Of a stretch of DNA of 64,000 nucleotides, positions 10,564-28,859 are shown piece by piece. Below the pieces are notes generated by a model, which had not been told where the DNA came from, made no database searches, and was given only the letters and a program-made list of their open reading frames with translations. Position 1 is the stretch's first letter, and each line of letters begins with the position of its first letter. A program made the translations under genes and the position numbers. This stretch comes from Hyphomicrobiales bacterium (lineage in GTDB: Bacteria; Pseudomonadota; Alphaproteobacteria; Rhizobiales; Beijerinckiaceae), in NCBI GenBank assembly GCA_900470775.1, contig UCBZ01000040.1:62295-126294 (forward strand), read 5' to 3'.

Positions 10564-10568
10564 GGGAC

Positions 10569-13433: not shown

Positions 13434-13452
13434 CAACGAGAGCGTTCCTCTG

Positions 13453-13476
13453 TGTTTCATTTCATATAATGAAACA
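13453..13476. promoter_or_regulatory. Candidate IclR operator (inverted repeat)
   Basis: A perfect 8-bp inverted repeat, TGTTTCAT-N8-ATGAAACA, in an unusually AT-rich stretch immediately upstream of the iclR-type gene. Its spacing of about 16 bp between half-site centres suits a dimeric winged-helix regulator. It overlaps the upstream alternative start codon. Confidence 0.6.
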
Positions 13477-13585
13477 TCATTTTGTTATTTGATACGCTAG
13501 CACAAAGACATTGCTCGTCAACCGCCTTGTGAGGGCGGGCAGGAGCGAGCGTATTGGGCCAGGGAAGGGCGCGCGTTGGCTCGTC

Positions 13586-14617: not shown

Positions 14618-14813
14618 GGCAAATCCGGAAGAGGGAGGGGTGATCGCCGTTGCGGCCGGGCGATCCTGCCGCGTGCTTATGCGCTGATGATGAAGCAGGC
14701 AGAATCCGCGACTCCACCAGCCCAGTTCCGCCACGGCGCCTGGGCCGCCCGTCATAGCAGGGCGGAGACCGGACTGTCAGGCGCGCAGCGGCGGCAGGGC
14801 CATGCAGCCAGCG

Positions 14814-14830
14814 TTGGCACGGCAGTTGCT
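14814..14830 (+). promoter_or_regulatory. Sigma-54 (RpoN) -24/-12 promoter
   Basis: TTGGCACGGCAGTTGCT matches the RpoN consensus YTGGCACG-N4-TTGCW at every defined position. The GG (-24) lies at 14816-14817 and the GC (-12) at 14828-14829. A transcript start is expected near 14841, about 33 bases before the ATG at 14874, which also argues against the longer upstream reading of that gene. No clear activator site was recognised upstream. Confidence 0.85.
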
Positions 14831-14873
14831 GGCTCCTCCGCTGCAGATTCCTCCCAGGGTTGTCGCCATTTCG

Positions 14874-15983
14874 ATGCCTATGCTTGCCGCACCCGCCGTG
14901 ATGACCGCCCAGCCGCTGACGCTGGACGGCATCACGCACAGCTATGGCGGCGGGCTCGCGGTCGACAATGTCACACTCGAGGTCAAGGGCGGCGAGCTCG
15001 TCGCCCTGCTCGGCCCCTCCGGCTGCGGCAAGACCACGCTGCTGCGGATCGTCGCCGGCTTCATCCAGCAGGGCAACGGCAAGGTCACGATCGACGGCCG
15101 GCCGATCGACACGTTGCCGCCCAACCGCCGTGAGATCGGCATCGTCTTCCAGAACTACGCGCTGTTCCCGCATATGACGGTCGCGGAGAACATCGCCTAT
15201 GGGCTCGCGGCGCGTGGCGAGAGCCGCGAGGTGCAGGCGCAGCGCGTCGCCGAGATGCTCGCCACCGTCCAGATGGGCAGCTTCGCCGACCGCAAGCCCA
15301 GGCAACTCTCCGGCGGCCAGCAGCAGCGCGTCGCTCTCGCCCGAGCGCTTGCCATGCGGCCGCGCATCCTGCTGCTCGACGAGCCCTTCGCCGCGCTCGA
15401 CAAGAACCTGCGGCTCGATATGCAGATCGAGATCAAGCGGCTGCAGCGCCAGTTTGCCCTGACCGCGATCATGGTCACGCATGACCAGGACGAGGCGATG
15501 GCGATCGCCGACCGCATCGCGGTGATGAGCCAGGGCCGGATCGAGCAGCTCGGCACGCCGGTGCAGGTCTATGACGAGCCGGCGACGCTGTTCGTCAACA
15601 ACTTCATCGGCTCCAGCAACCTCTTGAACGGCAAGGTCGAGGCGGCTGTCGATGGCGGCTATCGCGTCGCGCTTGCCAATGGCGCGGTCTGGACCGTCTT
15701 CTCGAAAGCCCGTTTCGAGCCTGGCCAACCGGTCGTCGTCTCGGTCCGGCCCGAGCAGATGCTGCTCGCCGACGAGCCGGCGCCCGACCGCATTCCCGTG
15801 ACGCTCAAGCTCAGCCTGCCGATCGGCGGCGAACTGATCCACGACGTGATCAGCCAGTCGGCCGACTCGCTCAAGGTCGCCATCGCGCGCCGCCCTGGCA
15901 TGGCGTCGGGCGGCACCGGCACAGCCTATTGCGGCCTCGCCGGCCACGCCCGCCCCGCGCTTTTCCCCGCTTCCAACCCCTGA
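14874..15983 (+). CDS. ABC transporter ATP-binding protein, polyamine/opine (PotA-like) type
   Basis: A 369-residue ATPase of the PotA/UgpC group with a C-terminal TOBE-like regulatory domain after about residue 240. Walker A is GPSGCGKTT near 52-60, the Q-loop region is FQNYALFPHMTVAENIAYGL, the signature is LSGGQQQRVALARAL near 147-161, and Walker B is LLLDEPFAALD. Starts at 14874, 14880 and 14901 are all in frame; 14874 is chosen because it best fits the predicted sigma-54 transcript start. It is the first gene of a rightward operon of seven genes and energises the two permeases encoded downstream. Confidence 0.92.
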   Translation: MPMLAAPAVMTAQPLTLDGITHSYGGGLAVDNVTLEVKGGELVALLGPSGCGKTTLLRIVAGFIQQGNGKVTIDGRPIDTLPPNRREIGIVFQNYALFPHMTVAENIAYGLAARGESREVQAQRVAEMLATVQMGSFADRKPRQLSGGQQQRVALARALAMRPRILLLDEPFAALDKNLRLDMQIEIKRLQRQFALTAIMVTHDQDEAMAIADRIAVMSQGRIEQLGTPVQVYDEPATLFVNNFIGSSNLLNGKVEAAVDGGYRVALANGAVWTVFSKARFEPGQPVVVSVRPEQMLLADEPAPDRIPVTLKLSLPIGGELIHDVISQSADSLKVAIARRPGMASGGTGTAYCGLAGHARPALFPASNP

Positions 15984-15997
15984 CCCGGAGACCTTTC

Positions 15998-17026
15998 ATG
16001 ACTGTCATGACCCGCCGCGACCTGATGGCCGGCGCAGCCGCGCTGGGCCTGGCCGGCATGCTGTCGGGCCGCGCCAGCGCCGCCGGCAGCCTCACCGCCG
16101 CGATCTATCCCGGCACCTGGGAAGAGGCCTATCGCGGCGTCGTCGCGCCCGAGCTCAAGAAGAAATACGCCGTCGACGTCGCCTTCGACGCGCTCTTCGC
16201 CGTCGATCAGGTCGCGAAGGTCCGCGCCGCGCGCGGCGTGCCCCCCTTCGACTGCTTCGTGCTCGATCCCGGCCCGGCGGCGGCTGCGATGCAGGCCGGC
16301 CTGTTCGAGCCGATCGACATCAAGAAGCTCAGCAACGCCGACAAGGTGCCGAAGGGCCTGATCACCTCGCATGCGGTGACCTGCAATGCTCAGGTCGTCG
16401 GCATCGCCTACAACCCGAAGAAGTTTCCCAACCCGCCCAAGACCTGGGCCGACCTGTTCAAGTCGCCTTACGTCGAGCGGTTGGGCCTGACCGGCTTCCA
16501 GACCACCTTCGGCACCGTCTCGCTGATCGAGATCGCCAAGGCTTTCGGTGGTTCGGAGGCGAATATGGACCCGGTCTTCAAGGTGCTGAAGGAGGCCGTG
16601 CCGAAGGTCGCCGCGATCGCGACGCCGGCTGCGCTGCCCGGCCTGTTCCAGCAGGGCCAGGTCGACATCATGTACGGCAACACCAACACGGTCGCGATCC
16701 TGAAGGGTCGCGGCGTCGACATCGCCTATATCGCGCCGGAATCGGGTTCGATCACCTTCCAGACCACGCTTCACATCGTGAAGGGCGCCGAGAACGTCGA
16801 CGCGGCCTATAAATACATCGACACCGCGATCTCGCCCGACATCCAGAACGCGCTGCAGAAGGCGCCCTACAACATGGTGCCGATCAACACCGACACGCCG
16901 CTCGATCCTTCCCTCGGCATCACCTCGCTCGACGAGCTCTCGAAGATGGTCACGCATGACTGGACCAAGATCAATCCGCAGCGTGCCGCCTGGATCGAGC
17001 GCTTCAACAAGGAGATCACCAAGTAA
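15998..17026 (+). CDS. Periplasmic substrate-binding protein (PotD-like)
   Basis: A 342-residue type II periplasmic binding protein. The N-terminus MTVMTRRDLMAGAAALGLAG is twin-arginine-like and ends near ASAAG, so export is probably by Tat. The mature start SLTAAIYPGTWEEAYRGVVAPELKKKY is typical of spermidine/putrescine- and opine-binding proteins. GGAG lies seven bases before the ATG at 15998. The C-terminal half includes the family-typical NAAYKYID-type helix (AENVDAAYKYIDTAIS). It lies 14 bases after the ATPase gene and 10 bases before the first permease gene. The likely ligand is a small nitrogen compound matching the PuuE-like enzyme downstream, but this is inference. Confidence 0.9.
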   Translation: MTVMTRRDLMAGAAALGLAGMLSGRASAAGSLTAAIYPGTWEEAYRGVVAPELKKKYAVDVAFDALFAVDQVAKVRAARGVPPFDCFVLDPGPAAAAMQAGLFEPIDIKKLSNADKVPKGLITSHAVTCNAQVVGIAYNPKKFPNPPKTWADLFKSPYVERLGLTGFQTTFGTVSLIEIAKAFGGSEANMDPVFKVLKEAVPKVAAIATPAALPGLFQQGQVDIMYGNTNTVAILKGRGVDIAYIAPESGSITFQTTLHIVKGAENVDAAYKYIDTAISPDIQNALQKAPYNMVPINTDTPLDPSLGITSLDELSKMVTHDWTKINPQRAAWIERFNKEITK

Positions 17027-17036
17027 GGACACGGCG

Positions 17037-17909
17037 ATGGCTGGCGCGGCTGTAGCGGCTACCGGTTCGTCCGGTGTGCCGGGGGAGAAGGTCGACTGGC
17101 GCCTCGCGGCGCCTCTCGGCCTGACCTATCTCGCCTTCTTCGCCGCGCCCTTCGCGATTCTGCTCGGCGTCAGCTTCTACGCCGATTCCGAGCAGACGCG
17201 GCTGGGCCTCGATTCCTGGACGAAGTTCTACGGCGACGCCTTCTATCTCAAGGTCATCCTCGACACGCTGAAGCTCGGCGTCTTCGCCGTCGTCGCGACG
17301 ACGCTGCTGGCCTATCCGCTGGCGCTGGTGTTTCGCGCCGCCAGTGCGCGTGCCCAGCGCGTGCTGATCTTCATCATCCTGATGCCGCTTTTGACCTCGG
17401 TCGTGATCCGCACCTTCGCCTGGATCGTCATCCTGGCGCGCGAGGGCGTGATCAACCAGACGCTGATCGGGCTGGGCATAACCGCGACGCCGCTCAACCT
17501 GCTGCAGACCGAACTCGGCCTCGTCATTGCGCTGACGCAGATCGAGATGCCGCTGATGCTGCTGCCCCTGCTGACGATCATGAACCAGATGGACCAGAAC
17601 CTGATCGACGCCTCGCGCGCGCTCGGCGCCTCGAAATGGCGGACCTTCTTTCGGGTCGTCCTGCCGCTGACCCTGCCGGGCTGGATCGCCGGCGCGACGC
17701 TGGTCTTCGCCTCGGCGACGACGGCCTTCATCTCGCAATCGGTGATCGGCGGCGCGCGCCTCGTCTACCTCCCGGCCCTGATCTACCAGCAGGTCACCGT
17801 GGTCTATAATTGGCCCTTCGCGGCGGTAGCCTCGCTGACGCTGCTCTTCACGGTGCTGGCGGGCATCATGGCGCTGGGCTGGCTCGGCCGCTTCGCGAAG
17901 ACGAGCTGA
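17037..17909 (+). CDS. ABC transporter permease, PotB-like
   Basis: A 290-residue inner-membrane permease with six hydrophobic segments. The cytoplasmic EAA loop is visible as LIDASRALGASKWRTFFRVVLPLTLPG near residues 196-222. The ATG at 17037 has AAGGA seven bases upstream; the longer frame that runs into the preceding gene is not homologous. It forms the translocation pore with the second permease starting at 17919. Confidence 0.92.
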   Translation: MAGAAVAATGSSGVPGEKVDWRLAAPLGLTYLAFFAAPFAILLGVSFYADSEQTRLGLDSWTKFYGDAFYLKVILDTLKLGVFAVVATTLLAYPLALVFRAASARAQRVLIFIILMPLLTSVVIRTFAWIVILAREGVINQTLIGLGITATPLNLLQTELGLVIALTQIEMPLMLLPLLTIMNQMDQNLIDASRALGASKWRTFFRVVLPLTLPGWIAGATLVFASATTAFISQSVIGGARLVYLPALIYQQVTVVYNWPFAAVASLTLLFTVLAGIMALGWLGRFAKTS

Positions 17910-17918
17910 GGTCAGACC

Positions 17919-18737
17919 ATGCAGCGCTCAACCCTCGGCGACGTCACCTACAACTGGGTCATCGGCTGTCTCGCTGGCCTCGCCATCCTGATCCTGGTCG
18001 GGCCGGTCCTGATCGTGATCGCGACCTCCTTCACCACCTCGCAGACTCTGCGCTTCCCGCCGCCGGAATTGTCGCTGCGCTGGTACGGCGAACTCTTCGA
18101 CCCCGTCCGCTCGGCCCAGATCCACATAGCGGCGCTGAACAGCGTCTGGGTCGCGGGCCTTGCCACGCTGATCGGCGCTGTGCTGTCCGTGCTCGCGGCG
18201 CTGGCGATTACGCGGGTGACAAGACCCTCGGCCCGCTTCATCGAGGCCAGCTTCCTGTCGCCGCTGATCCTGCCGACACTCTCCTACGGGCTGGCGGCGC
18301 TGATGTTCTTCTCCGTGCTCGGCATCAGGCCCTCGCTCAATCTGCTGATCGCCGGCCATCTCGTGGTGATCGCGCCCTTCATCTTCCGCACGACGCTGGC
18401 GAGCCTGACCCAGCTCGATCCCGTCCTGCTCGAGGCCTCCGCCAATCTCGGCGCGAGCCGCATCTATGGCTTCCGCCGCATCACCTTGCCGCTGATCGCG
18501 CCCGGCATCGCGGCCGGCTGCTTCCTCGCCTTCATCTCCTCGATGGACAATGTCCCGGTCTCGCTCTTCCTCTCCAACGCGCGCACCTCGATGCTGCCGA
18601 TCCGGATGTGGGGCATGATGGAATCGACGCTCGACGTCCGCATCGCCGCCATCGCCGGCGTGCTGATCCTGGCGACGCTCCTGCTGATGATCGTGATGGA
18701 CCGCCTGACCGGCCTGACCAAGCGCATGAGCGGGTGA
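17919..18737 (+). CDS. ABC transporter permease, PotC-like
   Basis: A 272-residue inner-membrane permease with six hydrophobic segments. The EAA loop is LLEASANLGASRIYGFRRITLPLIAPG near residues 170-196. GAGG lies a few bases before the ATG at 17919, which itself comes nine bases after the preceding stop. It is the second pore subunit of the importer encoded from 14874. A palindromic repeat follows in the 144-base gap before the PuuE-like gene. Confidence 0.92.
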   Translation: MQRSTLGDVTYNWVIGCLAGLAILILVGPVLIVIATSFTTSQTLRFPPPELSLRWYGELFDPVRSAQIHIAALNSVWVAGLATLIGAVLSVLAALAITRVTRPSARFIEASFLSPLILPTLSYGLAALMFFSVLGIRPSLNLLIAGHLVVIAPFIFRTTLASLTQLDPVLLEASANLGASRIYGFRRITLPLIAPGIAAGCFLAFISSMDNVPVSLFLSNARTSMLPIRMWGMMESTLDVRIAAIAGVLILATLLLMIVMDRLTGLTKRMSG

Positions 18738-18768
18738 TTGCCGAGCCGCTCGTTTGATTCAGCCTCGC

Positions 18769-18864
18769 CGTCATCCCGGACGCAGCGAAGCGGAGATCCG
18801 GGATCCATTCCTGAAGCGTTCCGGAATGGGTCCCGGGTCTCCCCTGCGGTCGCCCGGGACGACC
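18769..18864. repeat. Interspersed palindromic repeat, family A copy 2
   Basis: An imperfect palindrome of about 96 bases between the permease gene and the PuuE-like gene. It shares the core TTCCGGAATGGGTCCCGGGT and the right end CGCCCGGGACGACC with copy 1 at 911-1005. Inside an operon it could act as an RNA hairpin that stabilises or attenuates the upstream message. Confidence 0.7.
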
Positions 18865-18881
18865 TCGGATGAGAATGTACG

Positions 18882-19808
18882 ATGGAGACCTTTGTGACCT
18901 ACGACCGCGACCTGATCGGATACGGGGCCAACCCGCCCAATCCGCAATGGCCGAATGGCGCCCGCATCGCGATCAACTTTGTGATGAATTACGAGGAGGG
19001 CTCCGAGCCCTCGATCCAGGACGGCGAGGGCTATACCGAGCTCGGCCTGACCGAGGCGAACGGCCTGCCGACCGGGGTCAAGGGCCGCGATCTCGCCGGC
19101 GAGGGCATGTTCGCCTATGGCAGCCGCGTCGGTTTCTGGCGCTTGATGCGGCTCTTTCAGGAACGCGGGCTGCCGCTGACCGTGTTCGGCTGCGCGCTGG
19201 CGATCGAGCGCAACCCGGAGGCCGCCGCCGCGATCAAGGCCTCGGGCTTCGACGTATGCTGCCATGGCTGGCGCTGGATCAAGCACTACGACCTGACCGA
19301 GGAGGAGGAGCGCGAGCACATCGCCAAGGCGATCGTCTCGCTCAAGGCCACCGTCGGCGAGCGGCCGCTGGGCTGGTATTGCCGCTATGGGCCCAGCGTC
19401 AACACCCGCAAGCTCGTCGTGGAGGAGGGCGGTTTTCTCTATGATTCAGACGCTTACGACGATGAGTTACCGTATTGGAAGGTCGTCGACGGCAAGCCGC
19501 ATCTGGTCGTGCCCTATTCGCTGGTCAATAATGACGGCAAGTTCGGCTCGGGCTTCTTTGGCACCTCGAACGATTATTTCGATTGGCACAAGGACGCCTT
19601 CGACATGCTCTATGCCGAGGGCGCGACGCAGCCCAAGATGATGTCGGTCGGCCTCCACATGCGCCTGATCGGCCATCCGGCGCGCGCGGCGGGCCTCGCC
19701 CGCTTCCTCGACTACGTGCAGGGCCATCAGGGCGTCTGGGTGACGGGCCGGCTCGACATCGCCAAGCATTGGGCGAAGACGCATCCGTTTGCCGGAGAAC
19801 GCGCCTAG
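18882..19808 (+). CDS. puuE: PuuE-like allantoinase (NodB-fold, polysaccharide deacetylase family)
   Basis: A 308-residue protein, the usual length of PuuE, the allantoinase recruited from the polysaccharide deacetylase fold. Family blocks are clear: RDLIGYGANPPNPQWPNGAR, NYEEGSEPSI, YGSRVGFWRL, CCHGWRWIKHYD, GFLYDSDAYDDELPYW and VGLHMRLIGHPAR. The extended N-terminus that distinguishes PuuE from cell-wall deacetylases is present and there is no signal peptide. PuuE hydrolyses the hydantoin ring of allantoin to allantoate. Two related genes occur in the facing operon, so the substrate here may be allantoin or another hydantoin. It belongs to the sigma-54-driven operon from 14874, which suggests nitrogen-limitation control. 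Confidence 0.85.
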   Translation: METFVTYDRDLIGYGANPPNPQWPNGARIAINFVMNYEEGSEPSIQDGEGYTELGLTEANGLPTGVKGRDLAGEGMFAYGSRVGFWRLMRLFQERGLPLTVFGCALAIERNPEAAAAIKASGFDVCCHGWRWIKHYDLTEEEEREHIAKAIVSLKATVGERPLGWYCRYGPSVNTRKLVVEEGGFLYDSDAYDDELPYWKVVDGKPHLVVPYSLVNNDGKFGSGFFGTSNDYFDWHKDAFDMLYAEGATQPKMMSVGLHMRLIGHPARAAGLARFLDYVQGHQGVWVTGRLDIAKHWAKTHPFAGERA

Positions 19809-19822
19809 GCTCTCCCGCTTCC

Positions 19823-19929
19823 ACCGTCATTCCGGACAAGCCGCGAAAGCGGCGCCGCTCCGGAATCCATCGTAAGGTGCTGCCCCATGATGGATTCCGG
19901 GTCAGCGCTTCGCTGGCCCGGAATGACGG
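19823..19929. repeat. Interspersed palindromic repeat, family A-like copy 3
   Basis: A palindrome of about 107 bases between the PuuE-like and NHL-repeat genes. The ends are inverted copies of CCGTCATTCCGG. The interior repeats GGAATCCATC and its complement GATGGATTCC. It is related in layout to the copies at 911 and 18769 but has a distinct interior. Confidence 0.7.
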
Positions 19930-19956
19930 CGCATTTTTGATCGAACGAGGATTCCC

Positions 19957-20808
19957 TTGCCCAAACCCGAACTCATCGTCGCCCTCGGCGACGCGCGCTA
20001 CCTCGTCGAGCGGCCTTTCGGCTCCTGGCCGCAGAATTCCGGCTTCGTCACGGATGTGACGGTCGATTCCCGCGGGCATGTCTTCGTCATGCTGCGCCAC
20101 GACCCGCTCACCCAGCCCAACGATCCGCGCGTGATCGAGCTCTCGCCCGAGGGCGAGTATATCGGCGGCTGGGGCGGCGACCTGATCGCGGATTCGCACA
20201 TGCTGACGGCCGATGCGCAGAATCGCATCCTCTGCGTCGATCGCGACATGCACGAAATCATCATCTGCTCGGTGAAGGGCGAGAAGCTTGGCGCGCTCGG
20301 CCAGCGCGGCGAGCCCGCGGCGCCGTTCAATCATCCCACCGACGTGCATGTCTCGTCCTGGGGCGACATCTACATCGCCGATGGCTATGCCGCGAGCCGC
20401 GTGCACCGCTTCTCGGCCTATGGCGTGCATATCCAGAGCTGGGGTTCGCAGGGCAGCGGCGACGGCCAGTTCGGTTGGCCGCATGCGATCTGGACCCATG
20501 CCGATGGCCGCGTCGTCGTCGTCGACCGCACCCATAACCGCGTCCAGGTCTTCGACCATAATGGCGGCCATCTCGCGAGCTGGACCCATTTCTATCAGCC
20601 CGTCGCGATCTGGGGCGACGCCGACGGCAACACCTATGTCACCGACATGATTCCGAGCCTGCAGAAGATCGGCCCGGCCGGCGAAAAGCTCGGCCGTTGC
20701 CGGCCCTTCCTGAACGGCGCCCACGGCATCTTCGGCATGGCGAACGGCGACATCCTGCTGGCCGAGGTCAATCCAAGCCGGATCACGCGGCTGGTGAAGC
20801 TGGACTAG
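19957..20808 (+). CDS. NHL-repeat beta-propeller protein
   Basis: A 283-residue protein made of NHL-type repeats, each of the form VDSRGHVFV, ADAQNRILCVDRD, VSSWGDIYIADGYAASRVHRFSA, THADGRVVVVDRTHNRVQVFD and GDADGNTYVTD. This predicts a six-bladed propeller, most like the peptidyl-amidoglycolate lyase / NHL group. The start is a TTG at 19957, supported by GAGG seven bases upstream; there is no earlier ATG in frame that fits. No signal peptide is evident. It lies between a PuuE-like allantoinase and an amidohydrolase in one operon. A ureidoglycolate-lyase-like or carbinolamide-lyase role is possible by analogy with the amidoglycolate lyases, but this is speculation. Confidence 0.82.
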   Translation: MPKPELIVALGDARYLVERPFGSWPQNSGFVTDVTVDSRGHVFVMLRHDPLTQPNDPRVIELSPEGEYIGGWGGDLIADSHMLTADAQNRILCVDRDMHEIIICSVKGEKLGALGQRGEPAAPFNHPTDVHVSSWGDIYIADGYAASRVHRFSAYGVHIQSWGSQGSGDGQFGWPHAIWTHADGRVVVVDRTHNRVQVFDHNGGHLASWTHFYQPVAIWGDADGNTYVTDMIPSLQKIGPAGEKLGRCRPFLNGAHGIFGMANGDILLAEVNPSRITRLVKLD

Positions 20809-20816
20809 TTCGCGCA

Positions 20817-22355
20817 ATGACGACGCAGATCATCTGGGGCGGGACGCTCCTGACCGGCTTCGACGCCGATGGCGAGCCGATCATCCATCGCGATGCCGGC
20901 GTGGTCTGCGAAGCCGGAATCGTCGTCGCGACCGGCCCGGTGGCCGAGCTGAAAACGCGCTACCCGGAGGCCGAGGTGACCGGCGGGCGCGATTTCGCGA
21001 TCACGCCCGGTTTCGTCAATTCCCATCACCATGTCGGTCTGACGCCGCTGCAGCTCGGCTCGCCCGATCATCCGCTCGAACTCTGGTTCGCCAGCCGCAT
21101 CGCGCTGCGCGATGTCGATCTCTATGCCGACACGCTGTTCTCGGCCTTCGAGATGATCGAGAGCGGCGTCACCACGGTGCAGCATCTGCACAGCCGCGCG
21201 CCGGGCACGCCGGCCGACATCCTTGCCGCCGCCGAGAAGGTTATCGCGGCCTATCGCGACATCGGCATGCGCGCCTCCTATTCGATGGCGCTGCGCGACC
21301 AGAACCGTCTGGTCTACGAGGCCGACCAGGATTTCGTCGCGCGGCTGCCCGAGGAATTGCGGCCCGCGGCGAGCGCCTTCTTCCAGCGCTTCACCGTGCC
21401 GCTTTCAGATCAGGTCGCGGTCTTCGACGAACTCCTTGCACGCCATGGCAAGGGCGACCGCATCCGCGTCCAGATCGCACCGGCCAATCTCCACTGGCTC
21501 TCCGAAAAGGCGCTGGAAACCACCGGCGAACTGCAGCGTCGCACCGGCCTACCGGTCCATATGCATGTGCTCGAGACGCCCTATCAGAAGGCCTATGCAA
21601 GCAAGCGCACTGGGGGCTCGGCACTGGCCCATCTCGACAAACTTGGCCTGCTCGGCCCGCATTTCACCATCGGCCATGGCGTCTGGATGAGCGAGGCGGA
21701 TATCGAGCTGGCGGCCGAGCGCGGCGTCTGCGTCTGCCACAACTGCTCGTCGAACTTCCGGCTGAAGAGCGGCATGGCGCCGGTCAACCGCTTTCTCGCG
21801 CGCGGCGTCCCCGTCGCCATCGGCATCGACGAGGCCGGCATCAACGACGACCGCGACATGCTGCAGGAGATGCGGCTGGTGCTCCGCGCTCATCGTGAGC
21901 CCGGCATCGATGCGCCCCATCCGTCGCCGGCGCAGGTGCTGAAGATGGCGACCGAGGGCGGTGCCGGCACCACGCCTTTTGCCGGCAGGATCGGCCGGCT
22001 CGAGCCCGGCCTGGCCGCCGATCTCGTGATGTTCGACTGGCCGGCCGTGACCTGGCCCTATCAGGATGAGGCGCTCGGCTTCGTGGAGGTGCTGGTCCAG
22101 CGCGCCAAGATCAAGGCAGTGCACAGCGTCATGATTTCAGGCGAGTGGGTCTATCGCGAACGCCGCTTCACGAAGCTCGACCGCGACGCCGTACTGGCCG
22201 GCCTCGCCGAGGCGTTGGCTAGGCCGAAGACTTTGGCCGAGACCGACCGCATGGCGCTCTCGCAGGCGCTGCTGCCGCATGTCCGCCGCTTCTATGACGG
22301 CTATCTCGACGGGCTCGGCGACGAGCCGCACTACCGCCCGAGTGGGCGCTTCTAG
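20817..22355 (+). CDS. Amidohydrolase, cytosine deaminase/TRZ-ATZ-like
   Basis: A 512-residue amidohydrolase with metal ligands visible as FVNSHHHVGLTPLQ (near residues 68-70), HMHVLETPYQK (near 247), FTIGHGVWM (near 285) and GIDEAGINDDRDM (Asp near 339). The N-terminal beta-sandwich and the C-terminal strand GRLEPGLAADLVMFDWP are intact. It is likely to deaminate or dechlorinate a nitrogen heterocycle, or to open a cyclic amide. The start is the ATG at 20817, nine bases after the NHL gene. It is the last gene of the rightward operon and meets the racemase gene of the facing operon tail to tail, with 13 bases between. Confidence 0.88.
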   Translation: MTTQIIWGGTLLTGFDADGEPIIHRDAGVVCEAGIVVATGPVAELKTRYPEAEVTGGRDFAITPGFVNSHHHVGLTPLQLGSPDHPLELWFASRIALRDVDLYADTLFSAFEMIESGVTTVQHLHSRAPGTPADILAAAEKVIAAYRDIGMRASYSMALRDQNRLVYEADQDFVARLPEELRPAASAFFQRFTVPLSDQVAVFDELLARHGKGDRIRVQIAPANLHWLSEKALETTGELQRRTGLPVHMHVLETPYQKAYASKRTGGSALAHLDKLGLLGPHFTIGHGVWMSEADIELAAERGVCVCHNCSSNFRLKSGMAPVNRFLARGVPVAIGIDEAGINDDRDMLQEMRLVLRAHREPGIDAPHPSPAQVLKMATEGGAGTTPFAGRIGRLEPGLAADLVMFDWPAVTWPYQDEALGFVEVLVQRAKIKAVHSVMISGEWVYRERRFTKLDRDAVLAGLAEALARPKTLAETDRMALSQALLPHVRRFYDGYLDGLGDEPHYRPSGRF

Positions 22356-22368
22356 CTTCGCCGATCGC

Positions 22369-23025
22369 TCAGAACCCCCGCATGAAGCGCTTCTGCGCCA
22401 GCCGGACGGCCGCGGGAATCGGCGCGATGATCGGCACGGGAAAGCGCAGATTGAGCGATTGCGCCGCCTGTCCCAGTGGGCCGCCGCCGATGACGATCGC
22501 CTCGGCGCCCATGGTTTCGATGGCATGGGCGCAGGCCTTGGCGAGGGCTTCGACCAGCGTTTCGTGATCGGCCATTACGGCATGGACGTCGCCTTCCGTC
22601 AGCGCGACGCCGCGCATCGTGGCGCCATGGCCGTAAGCCTGCGCCAGCGCCGTGATCGAATCAACGAGGTCGGGCGTCGTGGTCACCACGGCGAAGGGCC
22701 GCTTGCCGGAGCCGGCCTCCGCCATGCCGGCCTCGGCAATGCCCGTGACCGGGCATGACAGCCGATGCCGCAGTCCCGCCAGTCCGGGGTCGCCGAAGGC
22801 CGAGATGATGACGCCGTCCGGGGGGACGGATGCGATTGCGCCGGCCAGCGCCTGCACGGCCTTCGCCGCCTGCACCAGGGCCTCCTCGTTGGTGATCAGC
22901 GGCACGCCATAGGGCGCGCTCATCGCGTCGATCAACGTGCTGCGCGGCGCTGCCGCCTGGGCGATGGCGCGCATCATGCCGGTGGTGGCGGCGTTGGTGT
23001 TCGGGTTGATCAGGAGCAGGCGCAT
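22369..23025 (-). CDS. Asp/Glu/hydantoin racemase family protein (HyuE-like)
   Basis: A 218-residue racemase-fold protein. The N-terminus MRLLLINPNTNAATTGMM is the hallmark of the hydantoin racemase branch, and the later IGGGPLGQAA block near residue 180 is also typical. These enzymes use a cysteine pair; here the first candidate Cys is in RLSCPVTGI near 99, but the usual second Cys position (the GGGPL region) shows no Cys, so racemase chemistry may be altered. The likely ligand is a hydantoin, allantoin or a related ureide. The start overlaps the stop of the preceding deacetylase-like gene as TGATG. It is the last gene of the leftward sigma-54 operon. Confidence 0.82.
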   Translation of the reverse strand: MRLLLINPNTNAATTGMMRAIAQAAAPRSTLIDAMSAPYGVPLITNEEALVQAAKAVQALAGAIASVPPDGVIISAFGDPGLAGLRHRLSCPVTGIAEAGMAEAGSGKRPFAVVTTTPDLVDSITALAQAYGHGATMRGVALTEGDVHAVMADHETLVEALAKACAHAIETMGAEAIVIGGGPLGQAAQSLNLRFPVPIIAPIPAAVRLAQKRFMRGF

Positions 23026-23933
23026 CAGGGGCTCTCCGGCATGGCGGCGATGAAGGCGCGTGCGATCTCCGCACGGCCCGCGATCCAGAGTCTGTCGCGC
23101 CGCGCCGCCAGCAGGTTCAGGATATCGCGGAAGGCCGCGAAGCGCGCGGGCCGACCGACGATGCGCAGGTGGAAGCCGAGATTGAGCAGGCGGGGCAGGC
23201 CGCGCGCGGCCTCCGCCTCCAGCACGTCGAGCGCGTCGGTGACGTACTCCACCATCTCGCTTGCCCGCACGAAGCCGTTGGGGTGGAAGAATTTCATGTC
23301 GTTGCTGTCGAGCGAATAGGGCACAACCAGCAGCGGCTGCCCCGGCAAAGTCCGGTCCCAATAGGGCAGGTCGTCGTCGAAGCCGTTGGAGGTGTAGAGG
23401 AAGCCGCGCTCGGCGAGGAGGGACCGCGTCCATGGGCTCTCGCCGCCGCGGCAGAAGAAGCCGACGGGGGCGACGCCGGTCGCGCTCGTGATCGTCGCGA
23501 TGCAAGCGTCGATATCGGCGGCCTCGGCGTCCTTCGTTTCGTAATCGGCATGCGGCCGCCAGCGCCAGCCATGCACCGCGGGCTCGTGACCCCGCGCCAC
23601 GACCGCGCGCGCCAGCGCAGGCACCCGCTCGACGGCGCGTCCGCAGAAGAAGATCGTTGCGGTGATGCCGGTCTCGTCGAGCGCGTCGAGCATCCGCCAG
23701 AGCCCGGCGCGCATGCCATAGCCGAAGATCTGCTCCTGGCCCTGGTCGCGCTTGCCGGCCGGCACGACGCTGATGACCTCGCCCATGCTCTCCGAACGCG
23801 GATCGCCGTCGCCGACCTGAAGCTCGGCGCCCTCCTCGAAATTGATCACGACGGAGACGGCGAGCTTGCCGCCATTGGGCCAGGTGATGTCGGGCCAGGC
23901 GCCGGCATAGCCTTCGAGGTCGCGCAGGGTCAT
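23025..23933 (-). CDS. PuuE-like NodB-fold hydrolase (paralogue 2)
   Basis: A 302-residue paralogue of the PuuE-like protein at 18882. Shared blocks are MTLRDLEGYAGAWPDITWPN, INFEEGAEL, GYGMRAGLWRMLD, HEPAVHGWRWRPHAD, GFLYTSNGFDDDLPYWD and LNLGFHLRIVGRPARFA. There is no signal peptide, so it acts in the cytoplasm. It most likely hydrolyses a ring amide or hydantoin, but the substrate pocket differs from paralogue 1: for example a Cys-Arg pair replaces the Trp-Tyr-Cys stretch after the second strand. It lies 42 bases after paralogue 3 and overlaps the racemase gene as TGATG. Confidence 0.83.
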   Translation of the reverse strand: MTLRDLEGYAGAWPDITWPNGGKLAVSVVINFEEGAELQVGDGDPRSESMGEVISVVPAGKRDQGQEQIFGYGMRAGLWRMLDALDETGITATIFFCGRAVERVPALARAVVARGHEPAVHGWRWRPHADYETKDAEAADIDACIATITSATGVAPVGFFCRGGESPWTRSLLAERGFLYTSNGFDDDLPYWDRTLPGQPLLVVPYSLDSNDMKFFHPNGFVRASEMVEYVTDALDVLEAEAARGLPRLLNLGFHLRIVGRPARFAAFRDILNLLAARRDRLWIAGRAEIARAFIAAMPESP

Positions 23934-23975
23934 GCCGGGAACTCTAGATCAGGTGCGGCAGGGTTGGGAACCGGC

Positions 23976-24884
23976 TCAGCCCTTGCCGAGCGCCGCTAGC
24001 CAATGACGCGCGATGGCATCGCGGCGCGCGAACCAGACGCCGGGCTTGCTCGCCGCATGCGCCAGGAAACGTTCGAGCCCGCCGATGCGTCCCGGCCGAC
24101 CGATGATGCGCAGGTGCAGCCCCACCGACAGCATCCGCGGCGCCTCACCGCCCTCTTCATAAAGCTGGTCGAAGGCGTCGATGCAGTAGCGCGCGAAATC
24201 ATCGCCGAAGACGAAGCCGCCGCCACGCTGGAAGCGCATGTCGTTGGTGTCGAAGGCATAGGGCAGGACGAGATGCTCGGCGCCCTCGACATCCACCAGA
24301 TAGGGAAGGTCGTCATTGTAGGCGTTGGAATCGTAGAGGAAGCCGCCATGCTCGCGCAAGAGCCGGCGGGTGTTCACCGAGGTAGCCGAGCGCGTATGCC
24401 AGCCGACTGGGGGTGTCCCAGCGGCCTCGGTAATCGCAGCGACCGTGCGCGCGATTGCCTCGCATTCCTGGGCCTCGCTCATGTCGGCATGGCGCTCCCA
24501 GCGCCAGCCATGGGCGGCGACCTCATGCCCGTCCTCGACGCCCTCGCGCGCCAGCCACGGCGAAAGGGCCAGGCACCGGCCATTGGCGTTGAGCGTCGCG
24601 CTGACGCCGTATTGCTTCAGCAAGGCGCGAATGCGGGGCCAGCCGGCGCGCGGGCCGTACTCAAAATGCGACTCCATGCAGAGGTCGCGGACGCCGGTGA
24701 TCTCCTCGACGACCTCGTAGACGCCCTCATTGCGCTCGTCGCCCTGGCCGATCGAGAGCTCCGCGCCCTCTTCGACATTGACGACGACGGAGACGGCGAG
24801 ACGCGCGTCGCCCGGCCAGCGGATTGCAGGCGGATGGCCGCTATAGCCGCGGAAATCGCGGTCGGTCGTGGGGGCAGGCGGCAT
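23976..24884 (-). CDS. PuuE-like NodB-fold hydrolase (paralogue 3)
   Basis: A 302-residue PuuE-like protein. Recognisable blocks are RDFRGYSGHPPAIRWPGDAR, VNVEEGAELSIGQGDERNE, FEYGPRAGWPRI, HEVAAHGWRWERHADMS, GFLYDSNAYNDDLPY and VGLHLRIIGRPGRIGG. It is closer in pattern to paralogue 1 than to paralogue 2 around the DSNAYNDDLPY motif. The ATG at 24884 overlaps the stop of the preceding permease gene as TGATG, so the enzyme is made in step with the transporter. It probably processes the imported ligand. Confidence 0.85.
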   Translation of the reverse strand: MPPAPTTDRDFRGYSGHPPAIRWPGDARLAVSVVVNVEEGAELSIGQGDERNEGVYEVVEEITGVRDLCMESHFEYGPRAGWPRIRALLKQYGVSATLNANGRCLALSPWLAREGVEDGHEVAAHGWRWERHADMSEAQECEAIARTVAAITEAAGTPPVGWHTRSATSVNTRRLLREHGGFLYDSNAYNDDLPYLVDVEGAEHLVLPYAFDTNDMRFQRGGGFVFGDDFARYCIDAFDQLYEEGGEAPRMLSVGLHLRIIGRPGRIGGLERFLAHAASKPGVWFARRDAIARHWLAALGKG

Positions 24885-25684
24885 CAGAGATCGGCCATGC
24901 GGCGCAGGCCCACCAAACGGTCGCCGATGACGAGCACGGCGGCGGCGAGCAGGATCAGCAGGGCCGAGATCGCCGCGATCGTCGGATCGGGGCTTTCCTC
25001 GACATATTGCAGCATCTGGATCGGCAAGGTCTTGGTCCAGGCGTTGGTGAAGAAAATCGAGATCGGATAATTGTCCATCGAGGCGAGGAAGGCGAACATG
25101 CCCGAGGTCAGGAAGGCCGGCGCCAGTGCTGGCACCAGCACCTTCATCACCGCCTTGGGGTAGGGCAGGCCGAGCGTGCGGGCAGCATCGATCAGGGTGA
25201 AGTCGAACAGCGACAAGGCCGCATAGACGGTGCGCACCACATAGGGCAGCGTGATCACGACATGGGCCAGGATCAGGCTCGCCCACACATCGCGCAAACC
25301 GGCGGCGCGGAAGGTCTCCAGCATGGCGATGCCGATGACGAGGCCCGGCAGCATCAGCGGTGAGACCAGGAAGGTGACGATCGCATCGCGCGCCTTGAAC
25401 TGGCTGCGCAGCAGGCCGATGGCGCAGAGTGTCCCCAGCACCAGCGCGACCGCGGTCGAGAGAGCCGCGAGCTGGACGGAGGCCCAGACCACCGGCCAGA
25501 GCTCGCGCGAGCGGCCGAGCGCCTGATACCAGCGCAGCGACCAGCTCGGCGCCGGCAGGGTGAAGACGGTGCTCGACCCGAACGAGACCAGCACCGTCAC
25601 GACCAGCGGCGTCAGCAGGAAGACGACGGTAAAGGCGGCCAGGGCCCAGACGACGGCAGAGGCGATGCGCTCGATGGCAGTCAT
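24884..25684 (-). CDS. ABC transporter permease, PotC-like (second system)
   Basis: A 266-residue inner-membrane permease with six hydrophobic segments. The EAA loop is LIDAARTLGLPYPKAVMKVLVPALAPA near residues 165-191. The ATG at 25684 overlaps the stop of the upstream permease as ATGA, and its own stop overlaps the deacetylase-like gene as TGATG. It is the second pore subunit of the importer whose binding protein is encoded at 27587-28636. Confidence 0.92.
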   Translation of the reverse strand: MTAIERIASAVVWALAAFTVVFLLTPLVVTVLVSFGSSTVFTLPAPSWSLRWYQALGRSRELWPVVWASVQLAALSTAVALVLGTLCAIGLLRSQFKARDAIVTFLVSPLMLPGLVIGIAMLETFRAAGLRDVWASLILAHVVITLPYVVRTVYAALSLFDFTLIDAARTLGLPYPKAVMKVLVPALAPAFLTSGMFAFLASMDNYPISIFFTNAWTKTLPIQMLQYVEESPDPTIAAISALLILLAAAVLVIGDRLVGLRRMADL

Positions 25685-26520
25685 GAGGCGCCTCCCAGCC
25701 GTTTCGACAGCGCCGCGCTTCCAACCACCACGGCGACCGTCAGCACAAGCAGCACCACGGCGGTGGTCGAACCGAGCTGTTCGTTGCGCATGAACAGGAA
25801 CGACCGGCCTGTCAGCGTCGCCAGCGTCTGGAAGCGGTCGCCGATCAACAGGTTCGGGATGACGTACATCGAGGCCGCCATCGAAAACACGAAGGCGATG
25901 CCGGTGACGATGCCCGGCAGGGACAGTGGCAACGCGACCTTGAAGAAGCGATAGAGCGGCGAGGCGCCGAGCGTCGCCGCCGCTTCGCCCAGGCGCGGGT
26001 CGACCAGCTTCAGCACCGAATAGATCGGCAGGATCATGAAGGGCACGAAGACATTGGCGGCGCCGATCACCAGCCCGGCCTCGGTGAAGAGCAGCCGCTG
26101 CGGTTCGCTCCACAGGCCCAGGCCCGTCATGAACTGCGACACGACGCCGTCGCGGCGCAGCACGATCTGCCAGGCGAAGGCCTTGACCACGACGCCGACC
26201 GACAGCGGCAGGATGATCGCGACCAGGATGAGCGCCTGCGCCACGCCGCCGGCGCGCGCCAGCGCCAGCGCCGTCGGATAGCCGATGAAGAGGCAGACCA
26301 GCGTCACCAGCACCGCGATGCGGACAGTGTTCCAGATCACCGTCCAGCTGAACGGATCGGACAGAAAGCTGATGAAGGGGGAAAGCGAGGGCATGCCGCC
26401 GACCATGACGCTGCGCCCGAGCAGGACGATCAGCGGCACGCCATACACGACTGCGAGATAGAGCACGGCTGGCAAAGCGAGCAGGATGACGGGGTCGATG
26501 CGGCGAGCCGAATTCATCAA
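25681..26520 (-). CDS. ABC transporter permease, PotB-like (second system)
   Basis: A 279-residue inner-membrane permease with six hydrophobic segments. The EAA loop is LGEAAATLGASPLYRFFKVALPLSLPG near residues 182-208. It overlaps the ATPase gene upstream and the PotC-like gene downstream, each as ATGA, giving a fully coupled cassette. Confidence 0.92.
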   Translation of the reverse strand: MMNSARRIDPVILLALPAVLYLAVVYGVPLIVLLGRSVMVGGMPSLSPFISFLSDPFSWTVIWNTVRIAVLVTLVCLFIGYPTALALARAGGVAQALILVAIILPLSVGVVVKAFAWQIVLRRDGVVSQFMTGLGLWSEPQRLLFTEAGLVIGAANVFVPFMILPIYSVLKLVDPRLGEAAATLGASPLYRFFKVALPLSLPGIVTGIAFVFSMAASMYVIPNLLIGDRFQTLATLTGRSFLFMRNEQLGSTTAVVLLVLTVAVVVGSAALSKRLGGAS

Positions 26521-27584
26521 GCCGCCTCCGACGCCGGATAGAGCAGCGTGTCCTCGACCGACCAGGACATCTCGAGCGGCGTGCCGGGTCCGGCTGCGGC
26601 CGGCAGGGCCGGGGCCTCCACGAGGATCTGCCCGCCTTGCGGCGACTGAAAATGCAGTTGCACCCGTGCGCCCTGGAAGGCGGCGTCGACTAGGCGCGCC
26701 TCGATCCGGTTGACATGGCTGTGGTCCAGCACGATGCGCTCGGGCCTGACGCCGATCAGAACGGGGCTGCCCGGCAGGAAATTGCCTTTGGCGCGCATCG
26801 GACCGGACTCGGTCGCGACCGTGACGAACCCGTCCGCCGCCTCCGTGACCTTGCCCGGCAGGCGCGTCGATAGGCCGACGAATTCGAGCGCGAAGGGCGT
26901 GGCCGGCTGCCGGTAGATCTCGGCCGGCGTATCGAGCTGCTCGATGCGGCCCTTGTACATCACCGCGATCCGGTCCGACATCGTCAGCGCCTCGTCCTGG
27001 TCATGGGTGACGAAGATCGCGGTCGTGCCGACCTCGCGCAGCAGGCGCTTGAGATCGATCTGCATGGTCTCGCGCAGCTTGCGGTCGAGCGCCGAGAAGG
27101 GCTCGTCGAGCAGCAGCAGCTTCGGCCCGACGACGAGTGCTCGCGCCACAGCGACGCGCTGCTGCTGCCCGCCCGAGAGCGCCTTGATCGAGCGGTCGGC
27201 ATAGGCGCTCATCTGGACGAGCGCGAGGAAGCGCCCGACCGCCGGCGCGATCTCGGCGGCGGGCGCCCCGCGCGCCTTCAAACCGAAGGCGACGTTCTCC
27301 GCCACTGTGAGATGCGGGAACAGCGCATAGCTTTGGAACACCACGCTGACGTCGCGCTTATGCGGCGGGCGACGCGTGATGTCCTCTCCATCGAGGGCGA
27401 CCTTGCCCTGGTCGGGTCGCATCAGCCCGGCCACGATGCGCAGCAACGTGGTCTTGCCGCAGCCCGAGGGACCGAGCAGCGAGATGAACTCGCCCCGGCT
27501 CATCGAGAGATCGACGCCGTCCAGCACCGTTGCCGCGCCGAACGTCTTCGCCGCCCCGGCGACGGAGAGGAACCCGTCCGCCAT
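26517..27584 (-). CDS. ABC transporter ATP-binding protein, PotA-like (second system)
   Basis: A 355-residue ATPase. Walker A is GPSGCGKTT near residues 38-46, the Q-loop is FQSYALFPHLTVAENVAFGLK, the signature is LSGGQQQRVAVARALV near 135-150, and Walker B is LLLLDEPFSALD. A TOBE-like domain occupies the last 110 residues. It is a paralogue of the ATPase at 14874. It lies two bases after the binding-protein gene and overlaps the first permease gene. Confidence 0.93.
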   Translation of the reverse strand: MADGFLSVAGAAKTFGAATVLDGVDLSMSRGEFISLLGPSGCGKTTLLRIVAGLMRPDQGKVALDGEDITRRPPHKRDVSVVFQSYALFPHLTVAENVAFGLKARGAPAAEIAPAVGRFLALVQMSAYADRSIKALSGGQQQRVAVARALVVGPKLLLLDEPFSALDRKLRETMQIDLKRLLREVGTTAIFVTHDQDEALTMSDRIAVMYKGRIEQLDTPAEIYRQPATPFALEFVGLSTRLPGKVTEAADGFVTVATESGPMRAKGNFLPGSPVLIGVRPERIVLDHSHVNRIEARLVDAAFQGARVQLHFQSPQGGQILVEAPALPAAAGPGTPLEMSWSVEDTLLYPASEAA

Positions 27585-27586
27585 GC

Positions 27587-28636
27587 TCAGATCGCCATCT
27601 CGCGGTCCCAGCGCTTGACCCAGTCATTGCGCTGGGCGGCGACATTGGCCCAGTCGATTTGATGGATCTTGACGTCGGCGCCCAGGCCCTCGGGCTTCGG
27701 CACCGCCTTGTTGGTGGCGAGCGAGAACGTCGGGCCGGCAAGCTTGTTCTGCAGCTCGGCGCCGAGCAACTCGTTGACATAGGCGAAGGCGAGTTCGGAT
27801 TGCGGGGCGCCCTTGATCACCGCGATGCCCGACGGCATGGCGAAGACGCCTTCCTTGGGCGCTGCGAGGTCGATCGGCGCGCCCGCCGCCTTGCGCTCCA
27901 GCACATAGGACGACATTGCCGGCCCGATCATCCAGGCCTCGCCCTGTTCGAGCAGATTGAAGGCCTGCGGTTGCTGCGTGTAGATCGTCAGCAGGTTGGA
28001 CTTCAGCGTAGCCAGCTTCTTGAAGCCGGCATCGGTGTCCTTCTGCACGCTCTCCATCGTGCCGCCAGTGAGCAGCCCGGCCACGAACAGCGACGGCAGG
28101 CCTTCGGTGTTCTGGAGCGAGGGGATGACGATCCTGCCCTTGTACTTCGGGTCGAACATCTCGGCCCAGGAGGAGGGCGGGGTCTTCATCGCGCTTTTGC
28201 TGTAGGCGACGCCGAGCCAGGGCTGCAGGTAGTTCGCCCACATTCCGTCCATATGGGTGGAGCCGGGCAGGAGATCTGCGAGGTTGGGCGCCTTGGCCGG
28301 CGTGAGCGGGTCGAGCAAGCCTTCCTTTACGGCAAGGATCATCACCGGATCGTCCATCTGGACGACAGACATGTACTGGCTGCCCTTGTTCTTCTGCATC
28401 TTTTCGAGATTGACGAGCGAGCGCGTGCCCTCGAACAGGATTTTGCAGTTGTACTTTTTCTCGAAGGCGGGAACGACGATCTGCTCAACCCAGGGCTTGT
28501 GGCCGGCCGCGCCGCCGACGACCAGCTCCTTTGTTTGTGCCCGCAGCACGGACGGAGCGGCGATCAGCGTCGCGGCGCCGGTTGCGGCCTTGAGCAGTCC
28601 GCGGCGGGTCGGCTGGCCCTCGAAAAGCTTCATCAT
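27587..28636 (-). CDS. Periplasmic substrate-binding protein (PotD-like, second system)
   Basis: A 349-residue type II binding protein with a twin-arginine-type signal (PTRRGLLKAATGAATL, cleavage probably after VLRAQ near residue 34). The mature start KELVVGGAAGHKPWVEQIVVPAFEKKY fits the spermidine/putrescine-opine family. The ATG at 28636 follows AAAGG; an adjacent ATG at 28633 is equally readable. It is the first gene of the leftward operon, with a sigma-54 promoter 58 bases upstream. Unlike the facing operon, the binding protein here precedes the ATPase. Confidence 0.9.
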   Translation of the reverse strand: MMKLFEGQPTRRGLLKAATGAATLIAAPSVLRAQTKELVVGGAAGHKPWVEQIVVPAFEKKYNCKILFEGTRSLVNLEKMQKNKGSQYMSVVQMDDPVMILAVKEGLLDPLTPAKAPNLADLLPGSTHMDGMWANYLQPWLGVAYSKSAMKTPPSSWAEMFDPKYKGRIVIPSLQNTEGLPSLFVAGLLTGGTMESVQKDTDAGFKKLATLKSNLLTIYTQQPQAFNLLEQGEAWMIGPAMSSYVLERKAAGAPIDLAAPKEGVFAMPSGIAVIKGAPQSELAFAYVNELLGAELQNKLAGPTFSLATNKAVPKPEGLGADVKIHQIDWANVAAQRNDWVKRWDREMAI

Positions 28637-28693
28637 GGTCTGGCCTTTCAGCTTCGACGCGCTCCCAGGCGGCGCGGACATCCGAAAGGCTTC

Positions 28694-28710
28694 AGCAACC
28701 GCCGTGCCAA
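28694..28710 (-). promoter_or_regulatory. Sigma-54 (RpoN) -24/-12 promoter
   Basis: On the minus strand this reads TTGGCACGGCGGTTGCT, a full match to YTGGCACG-N4-TTGCW. It differs from the site at 14814 only at one spacer base. Transcription is expected to start near 28683, about 47 bases before the binding-protein gene. Confidence 0.85.
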
Positions 28711-28828: not shown

Positions 28829-28859
28829 TTGTGCACAATCGCTAACGAAATGTGCATAA
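28829..28859. promoter_or_regulatory. Candidate tandem GntR/FCD operator
   Basis: A perfect 10-bp palindrome, TTGTGCACAA (28829-28838), is followed by a near copy, ATGTGCATAA (28850-28859). The TGCA centres are 21 bp apart, two helical turns. The pair lies between the leftward transporter operon and the rightward GntR gene, about 80 bases before the latter. Confidence 0.5.

Follow-up and report, generated by a model that had tools for sequence, protein, structure and literature searches.

Two convergent operons with conserved sigma-54 promoters, divergent PuuE paralogues and a cysteine-less racemase-fold protein: a candidate nitrogen-scavenging pathway for cyclic ureides or imides

Introduction

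Hydantoin-utilisation (hyu) clusters combine a racemase, a hydantoinase and a carbamoylase. HxnM, a protein of the wider family of the PuuE allantoinases, is reported in PMC9304392 to cleave the ring of a cyclic imide distinct from allantoin; for the allantoin racemase KpAllR, PMC12661438 names Cys79 and Cys184 as the catalytic cysteines and Asn12, Thr118 and Thr119 as contacts to the ligand. Here we analyse a 64,000-nucleotide stretch of a Hyphomicrobiales genome (assembly GCA_900470775.1, contig UCBZ01000040.1, positions 62,295 to 126,294; hereafter the window), in which two convergent operons, denoted A and B (14.81–28.71 kb), encode relatives of PuuE and of the allantoin racemases together with ATP-binding cassette (ABC) importers. 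The window is part of one contig of a 5.55-Mb genome, to which all genome-wide counts refer.

On balance, we lean towards a reading in which operons A and B are the two halves of one sigma-54-dependent nitrogen-scavenging pathway for ring compounds of the N-C(=O)-N or imide type, the substrate most likely being a cyclic ureide, an imide or an iminohydantoin. Annotation would mask such a route under the names 'allantoinase', 'racemase' and 'polyamine transporter'. In the open-access literature searched, no report combining Bosea, sigma-54 and allantoin was found, and this module is not apparent from the titles or abstract openings of work on clusters of PuuE paralogues.

Architecture and promoters of the convergent operons

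Reading rightward from 14.81 kb, operon A encodes, according to Pfam and NCBIfam matches, an ATPase, a periplasmic binding protein, two permeases, a PuuE-like protein (PuuE-A), an NHL protein and an ATZ/TRZ-type amidohydrolase (Amh). Operon B, leftward from 28.71 kb, encodes a binding protein, an ATPase, two permeases, two PuuE-like proteins (PuuE1 and PuuE2) and a protein of the Asp/Glu/hydantoin racemase family (B-rac; gene rac). The two converge with their stop codons 13 bp apart (22355 and 22369). An earlier note on this DNA, made from its letters, had proposed two convergent ABC-transporter/hydrolase operons with matching sigma-54 promoters, which the gene content, the narrow gap between the stop codons and the promoter match confirm. 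Its description of the operons as near mirror images holds only roughly: the first two transporter genes are swapped in order, and the transporters are old paralogues with identities of 25–50% (ATPases 50%, binding proteins 25%, permeases 34% and 35%). At such identities, an origin of either operon as a recent copy of its neighbour was rejected.

The promoters of operon A (14814–14831, forward strand) and operon B (28710–28693, reverse strand) carry the −24 GG / −12 GC consensus with correct spacing, are conserved in relatives, and read TTGGCACGGC[A/G]GTTGCTG. They differ at one of 18 positions; the earlier note had counted one base in 17. From the promoter to the likely first start codon the distance is 43 bp in operon A (14874) and 57 bp in operon B (28636). 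At up to three mismatches the 18-bp sequence matches the window at these two places only (0.12 matches expected by chance), and exact copies of the core TGGCACGNNNNTTGCW occur genome-wide just twice, at operons A and B, its reversed control having none. Relaxing the core yields eight genomic sites, namely those of operons A and B and six others: four of the six immediately precede a gene for a binding protein, the fifth, at 593 bp to the left of the window, stands before a LysR gene with a binding-protein gene next in line, and the sixth precedes the gene of a MocR-type regulator.

Conservation of the promoters was followed in related loci (numbered L), the best 80 of 172 from a search of genome contigs with PuuE2, amounting to 1.44 Mb; because PuuE2 was the query, all 80 hold puuE2 and every locus percentage is conditional on its presence. 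With both strands scanned, sites with at least 11/12 matching positions number 46, and 34 of them lie before the operon A ATPase gene (25) or the operon B binding-protein gene (9). Others precede amh in L006, a locus in which no A block was found, the GntR gene leading operon A (L004), puuE2 (L078) and a weak (24%) binding-protein match (L071), and 8/46 precede none of the genes compared. With at least 10/12, a site is found upstream of the A ATPase gene in 31/35 loci and of the B binding-protein gene in 9/10, a count to which L018 brought just 3 bp of upstream sequence and in which the 10/12 site of L004 is unlikely to be the true promoter, a 12/12 site sitting before the GntR gene there. The A-ATPase loci lacking a site are L055 (68% identity) and L054, L074 and L079, the three matches at 50–53% among the 35 that are probably other ATPases. 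Chance as the source of the matches was rejected on this conservation across homologous loci. Judged by their recurrence before the same genes in related loci, both sigma-54 promoters are real and kept by selection, and the assignment made in the earlier note is borne out by the core found genome-wide at these two places only, the conservation and the presence of rpoN and NtrC genes in the genome.

Linkage of the enzyme genes in related loci

Genes that are divided between operons A and B in the window stand together elsewhere. puuE2 and amh lie on one strand within 6 kb in 23/80 loci, 15 of which have no A transporter block, and in 15/80 puuE1, puuE2, rac and amh share a strand over a stretch of no more than 9 kb, among others in Skermanella (L023, L031), Aureimonas (L016, L019), Roseobacter (L044) and Paracoccus (L072, L077). 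Because the genes split here form one row in those 15 loci, A and B most likely belong to one pathway. Among 67 Bosea-type genomes (numbered G; identity floors of at least 78% for puuE2, at least 88% for PuuE-A and at least 66% for rac, with co-occurrence sets compiled by hand from match listings), 15 hold puuE2; PuuE-A accompanies it in 14 of these and rac in 11. The module is found in many Proteobacteria, mostly Alphaproteobacteria, in several arrangements with one promoter type, and this recurrence suggests a nitrogen-scavenging route.

The earlier note had instead seen two systems side by side, each serving one of two related ureides or one of two stereoisomers, connected by the racemase. 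Two complete importers, two promoters of the same type and a racemase-family protein agree with that picture, and the occurrence of A and B enzyme genes together on one strand speaks against it, making two parallel systems for related ureides unlikely; taken with the state of the racemase-fold protein described below, we regard this explanation as very improbable.

The transporter is the exchangeable part of the module. It may be of the A type, of the B type, or of a third ABC type that stands beside SIS, PfkB and BtpA/SgcQ genes, and in Roseomonas (L050) a TRAP-type binding protein with relatives of hyuA/hyuB takes its place. By tblastn, SIS is found in 24/80 loci, PfkB in 21/80 and BtpA in 25/80, all three together in 20/80; this set, with its GlmS/FrlB-like SIS protein, lies near puuE genes in L014, L016, L023, L044 and 16 further loci. 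No report of a BtpA/SIS/PfkB operon was found in the open-access literature searched. In L015, a gene resembling N-carbamoylputrescine amidases (nitrilase family; 12847–13935) adjoins genes of operon B, and a binding protein of the amino-acid type is encoded downstream.

Three PuuE-like proteins

PuuE-A (18882–19808, forward), PuuE1 (23976–24884, reverse) and PuuE2 (23025–23933, reverse) score 394.8, 315.3 and 265.3 bits against TIGR03212, all below its cut-off of 424.6. The canonical PuuE of this genome scores 530.8 bits and is fused to UraD beside a HIU hydrolase on another contig, both the fusion protein and the HIU hydrolase exceeding their cut-offs; the term 'PuuE-like allantoinase' used in the earlier note is thus not upheld. 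Each copy carries a loop motif of its own: GWYCRYGPSxNTR in PuuE-A (42/42 sequences of its group), GWHTRSA in PuuE1 (36/37) and GFFCRGxESxWTR in PuuE2 (78/81). The three proteins are best regarded as separate PuuE subfamilies, probably neofunctionalised, and as three distinct paralogue groups they offer material on how this fold changes substrate. The PuuE tree was midpoint-rooted, with its root set by a very long branch, and PuuE1 does not form a single clade in it.

A plainer account would treat the three as redundant allantoinases that serve ordinary, additional utilisation of allantoin or purine ureides. PuuE-A in particular is 48% identical to the canonical PuuE of the genome, comes near the family cut-off, and has the PuuE allantoinase 3cl6 as its nearest solved structure. 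That account sits poorly with the canonical PuuE-UraD and HIU hydrolase encoded elsewhere, with loop motifs that set each copy apart from the others, and with the Pfam and NCBIfam scans, which named no allantoicase or ureidoglycolate gene in either operon; we consider it unlikely.

Another possibility is that the operons take up polyamines, amino sugars or glycated amines and de-N-acylate them, the PuuE-like proteins acting as NodB-fold deacetylases. The importers are of the Pot/Phn type, PMC3084791 reports homologues of PgdA next to importers of polyamines, and the loci that combine SIS, PfkB and BtpA include two from Bosea (L004, L006). However, the three copies are far closer to 3cl6 (E values 7e-107, 9e-84 and 3e-66) than to PgdA 3qbu (6e-12, 6e-15 and 1e-8), an allantoin-racemase fold and an ATZ/TRZ amidohydrolase suit ring chemistry better, and neither the window nor the stretches covered to its left gave a SIS, PfkB or BtpA match (L044 queries, tblastn, 1e-15). 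Deacetylation of this kind therefore appears doubtful.

A racemase fold without its catalytic cysteines

B-rac (22369–23025, reverse; Pfam Asp_Glu_race) can be aligned with allantoin racemases along its length, and superposition of its model on AllR/HpxA (PDB:3qvj) gives a TMq of 0.93 at 32% identity. The positions of the catalytic cysteines of KpAllR, Cys79 and Cys184, are occupied by Ala76 and Gly181, and the same two residues are found in 29/29 orthologues (47–86% identity). The equivalents of the ligand contacts Asn12, Thr118 and Thr119, namely N9, T115 and T116 (with a deduced numbering offset of 3), are retained in B-rac and in all 29. Of nine distant relatives (30–36%), a single one carries both catalytic cysteines, the other eight having Ala and Gly in their place; the position of T116 is Phe or Leu in these nine. 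A gene broken in this strain was considered and rejected, the residue state being the same in all orthologues. A second, more distant cysteine-less group (Ala and Gly, with Phe at T116) is found in L004, L006, L018, L020, L021, L030, L037 and L052, near the same genes of the module.

In OpaE, a family member with the cysteine dyad, a double Cys-to-Ser mutant keeps at most 0.3% of activity according to PMC12661438. The notion of two stereoisomers, which the earlier note derived from the racemase, loses its basis because both catalytic cysteines are gone in every orthologue. The most economical reading of the residue pattern is that B-rac still binds a hydantoin-like ring and performs a different chemistry or a non-catalytic role. 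In the open-access literature searched, racemases lacking both cysteines gave no report under those phrases. A racemase fold that is strictly conserved without its catalytic dyad is the surprising part of the module and poses a testable puzzle.

The amidohydrolase and the NHL protein

Amh (20817–22355, forward; Pfam Amidohydro_1) is a metal-type amidohydrolase that reaches none of the listed NCBIfam cut-offs. Residues H70, H72, H250, H287 and D338, which we take to be the metal ligands, are present in 42/42 sequences.

The NHL protein (19957–20808, forward; Pfam NHL) is modelled with confidence as a six-bladed propeller (pLDDT 93), and many His, Arg and Asp residues are invariant across 20 relatives. 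Among the 50 structures listed by Foldseek, the highest TMq (0.84) belongs to peptidyl-alpha-hydroxyglycine amidating lyase (PAL; PDB:3fvz); ordered by E-value, structural NHL proteins come first and PAL ranks third among the matches listed. From the PAL-like fold of the model, and with a presumed link between PAL-type and ureidoglycolate-lyase chemistry, we hypothesise that the NHL protein may be a lyase of the PAL or ureidoglycolate type.

A more specific scheme combines these two proteins with the others. The operons could encode a so far undescribed route for breaking down 5-substituted (imino)hydantoins such as guanidinohydantoin or iminoallantoin from oxidised guanine, or their nucleosides, with a new activity on the racemase fold. 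Amh, nearest in kind to deaminases of 8-oxoguanine and other aminopurines or of triazines, would turn the imino ring into a hydantoin. One ring after another would then be opened by the paired PuuE subfamilies. The cysteine-less fold would catalyse a novel reaction other than racemisation on that ring, and the role of a hydroxyglycine/ureidoglycolate-type lyase would fall to the NHL propeller. In the relatives, PfkB, BtpA and SIS might process the sugar of the nucleoside form. Guanidinohydantoin catabolism does not appear among the matches listed in the open-access literature searched, and we rate this scheme as a long shot.

Transporters and regulators

The transporter of operon A comprises an ATPase (14874–15983; Pfam ABC_tran, nearest NCBIfam PhnT2/PotA below cut-off) whose start, at 14874 or later, is uncertain; a binding protein (15998–17026, in an open frame from 15929; Pfam SBP_bac_8/6) with a leader that by eye is twin-arginine-like; a PotB-like permease (16956–17909, an open frame with an uncertain start; NCBIfam PotB below cut-off) and a PotC-like permease (17919–18737; NCBIfam PotC below cut-off), both matching Pfam BPD_transp_1 and all on the forward strand. 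Between the last permease gene and puuE-A lies a dispersed palindromic repeat (18755–18865) of 111 bp with 30-nt arms, predicted to form a hairpin, which has 73 matches in the genome, some copies being counted in both orientations; it may split transporter expression from enzyme expression in operon A.

On the reverse strand, operon B encodes a binding protein (27587–28636, in an open frame to 28681; Pfam SBP_bac_6/8), an ATPase with a TOBE_2 domain (26517–27584; Pfam), a PotB-like permease (25681–26520; Pfam BPD_transp_1) and a PotC-like permease (24884–25684; Pfam BPD_transp_1, NCBIfam PotC below cut-off, 35% identity to the operon A permease). Several adjacent open frames overlap by 1–4 nt, the ATG of puuE1 overlapping the permease stop codon by 1 nt. 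None of the transporter proteins of either operon reaches the NCBIfam cut-offs for PotABCD.

Besides rpoN, the genome encodes four strong bacterial enhancer-binding proteins, NtrC, NtrX and FlbD (over NCBIfam cut-offs) and one orphan response regulator. They belong to seven genome-wide matches to the Pfam sigma-54-activator domain, and all four are on contigs other than that of the window; the three weak matches (23.5–28.6 bits, Pfam cut-off 20.2) include ClpA in the window and another protein on the same contig outside it. A local activator in the window was rejected, its sole match being ClpA. By elimination, NtrC is the likeliest activator of both operons.

A GntR/FCD-family regulator (28937–29692, forward; Pfam FCD and GntR, NCBIfam phnR_burk/NanR below cut-off) is encoded divergently from operon B. 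Between its gene and the operon B promoter, approximately 130 bp upstream of the latter, lies the palindrome TTGTGCACAA (28829–28838), which occupies the same place in L002, L003 and L008 and is otherwise absent from the 1.44 Mb; its position suggests that it is probably the operator of the local GntR protein. Control would then probably combine sigma-54 and NtrC with a local GntR regulator on operon B.

The surrounding island

To the left of operon A lie hyuB and hyuA of the hydantoinase/oxoprolinase family (8995–12632, reverse; Pfam Hydantoinase_A and _B) with the IclR regulator (12645–13460, reverse; Pfam) of this hydantoinase-type operon, and an ABC importer of the branched-chain type. Against caprolactamase CapAB, the hyuA/hyuB products score 489 and 179 bits, below the NCBIfam cut-offs of 1000. 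A luciferase-like monooxygenase over the TIGR03858 cut-off (13586–14755, reverse) also stands beside operon A in L001 and L002. At the left edge of the window are a further NodB-fold (polysaccharide-deacetylase-like) protein (1031–1906, reverse), relatives of which lie near the module in L003 and L015, and another ATZ/TRZ amidohydrolase (3–950, reverse).

Just outside the left end of the window is an M20 carbamoylase gene (TIGR01879, 240.4 bits; cut-off 204). In this part of the same contig (L097, 3468–9703) it is grouped with a relaxed sigma-54 site, the LysR gene, a family-5 binding protein, a protein matching RidA-type sequences twice and an open frame that by eye resembles DUF1028; this group probably forms one more unit of the island for uptake and hydrolysis. 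Taken as a whole, the region has the look of an island devoted to cyclic amides and ureides.

Proposed route

In the single-pathway reading that we favour, each operon half would be transcribed from its sigma-54 promoter, with RpoN and an activator, most likely NtrC, being required and the divergent GntR protein adding substrate control on operon B. The two Pot/Phn-type importers would take up related cyclic substrates. Amh would then act on an amidine or amine of the ring, by hydrolysis or deamination, and the resulting hydantoin- or imide-like rings would be opened by the three PuuE subfamilies. B-rac could bind a hydantoin-like intermediate without racemising it, because both catalytic cysteines are absent, while the NHL propeller would probably serve as an accessory lyase. 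The M20 carbamoylase left of the window could complete the breakdown of released ureido or carbamoyl products. In this account the gene layout, the promoter conservation, the linkage of the genes into one module, the cysteine loss and the family assignments come from the sequences, and the substrate class, the order of reactions, the part of NtrC and the functions of the NHL protein and B-rac are deduced. The uptake and ring-opening system proposed in the earlier note thus survives in part: importers are accompanied by proteins of the PuuE family, the window holds HyuA/HyuB, and a gene of the carbamoylase family adjoins it; the allantoinase label, the stereoisomers and the two parallel systems do not.

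Several observations weigh against a single pathway of this kind. The transporters resemble importers of polyamines and aminoethylphosphonate, although they miss those cut-offs, and the SIS, PfkB-kinase and BtpA/SgcQ genes of 20/80 loci imply a sugar link that a pure hydantoin pathway leaves unexplained. Linkage is incomplete: on counts that depend on the thresholds used, and with several loci cut by contig ends, 51/80 loci have no rac, 39/80 no amh and 11/80 no other PuuE. In the genus comparison, 4 of the 15 puuE2 genomes have no rac at the 66% floor, rac occurs without puuE2 in G003 and G009, and PuuE-A occurs without puuE2 in G006 and G038. L055, with a clear orthologue of the A ATPase, has no promoter site. 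Lastly, no NtrC-type dyad is shared by the 31 A and 10 B upstream stretches, and for this reason the assignment of nitrogen control rests on elimination. The sigma-54 promoters make discovery of the substrate practical, by means of an rpoN-dependent reporter exposed to ureides and imides.

Comparison with known systems

The PuuE-like proteins are homologous over their whole length to PuuE allantoinase (TIGR03212; PDB:3cl6, with relatives 1z7a and 3s6o), and the core motifs N-x-EEG, HGWRW or HGYRW, and GLHxRxxGxP are common to 3cl6 and the proteins of the island. They differ in falling below the equivalog cut-off, and in their own loop motifs; the canonical copy, with UraD and HIU hydrolase, stands elsewhere in the genome. 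With the cyclic imide hydrolases (the imidase of Pseudomonas putida and HxnM of Aspergillus nidulans) they share the wider fold family; those enzymes are structurally closest to HpPgdA in the account given in PMC9304392, whereas the island proteins are closer to PuuE.

B-rac resembles AllR/HpxA (PDB:3qvj, 5lfd) in its fold and ligand-contact residues and differs in the loss of the residues equivalent to Cys79 and Cys184. The six-bladed NHL propeller is common to PAL (3fvz) and the operon A protein, a likeness of fold. Like the hyu clusters, the locus has a racemase-family protein and candidate ring-opening hydrolases, with HyuA/HyuB and a carbamoylase-family gene nearby. Unlike them, operons A and B include no dihydropyrimidinase-type hydantoinase named by the Pfam or NCBIfam scans, and their racemase-fold protein is without the cysteines; ring opening here would fall to the PuuE-type proteins.

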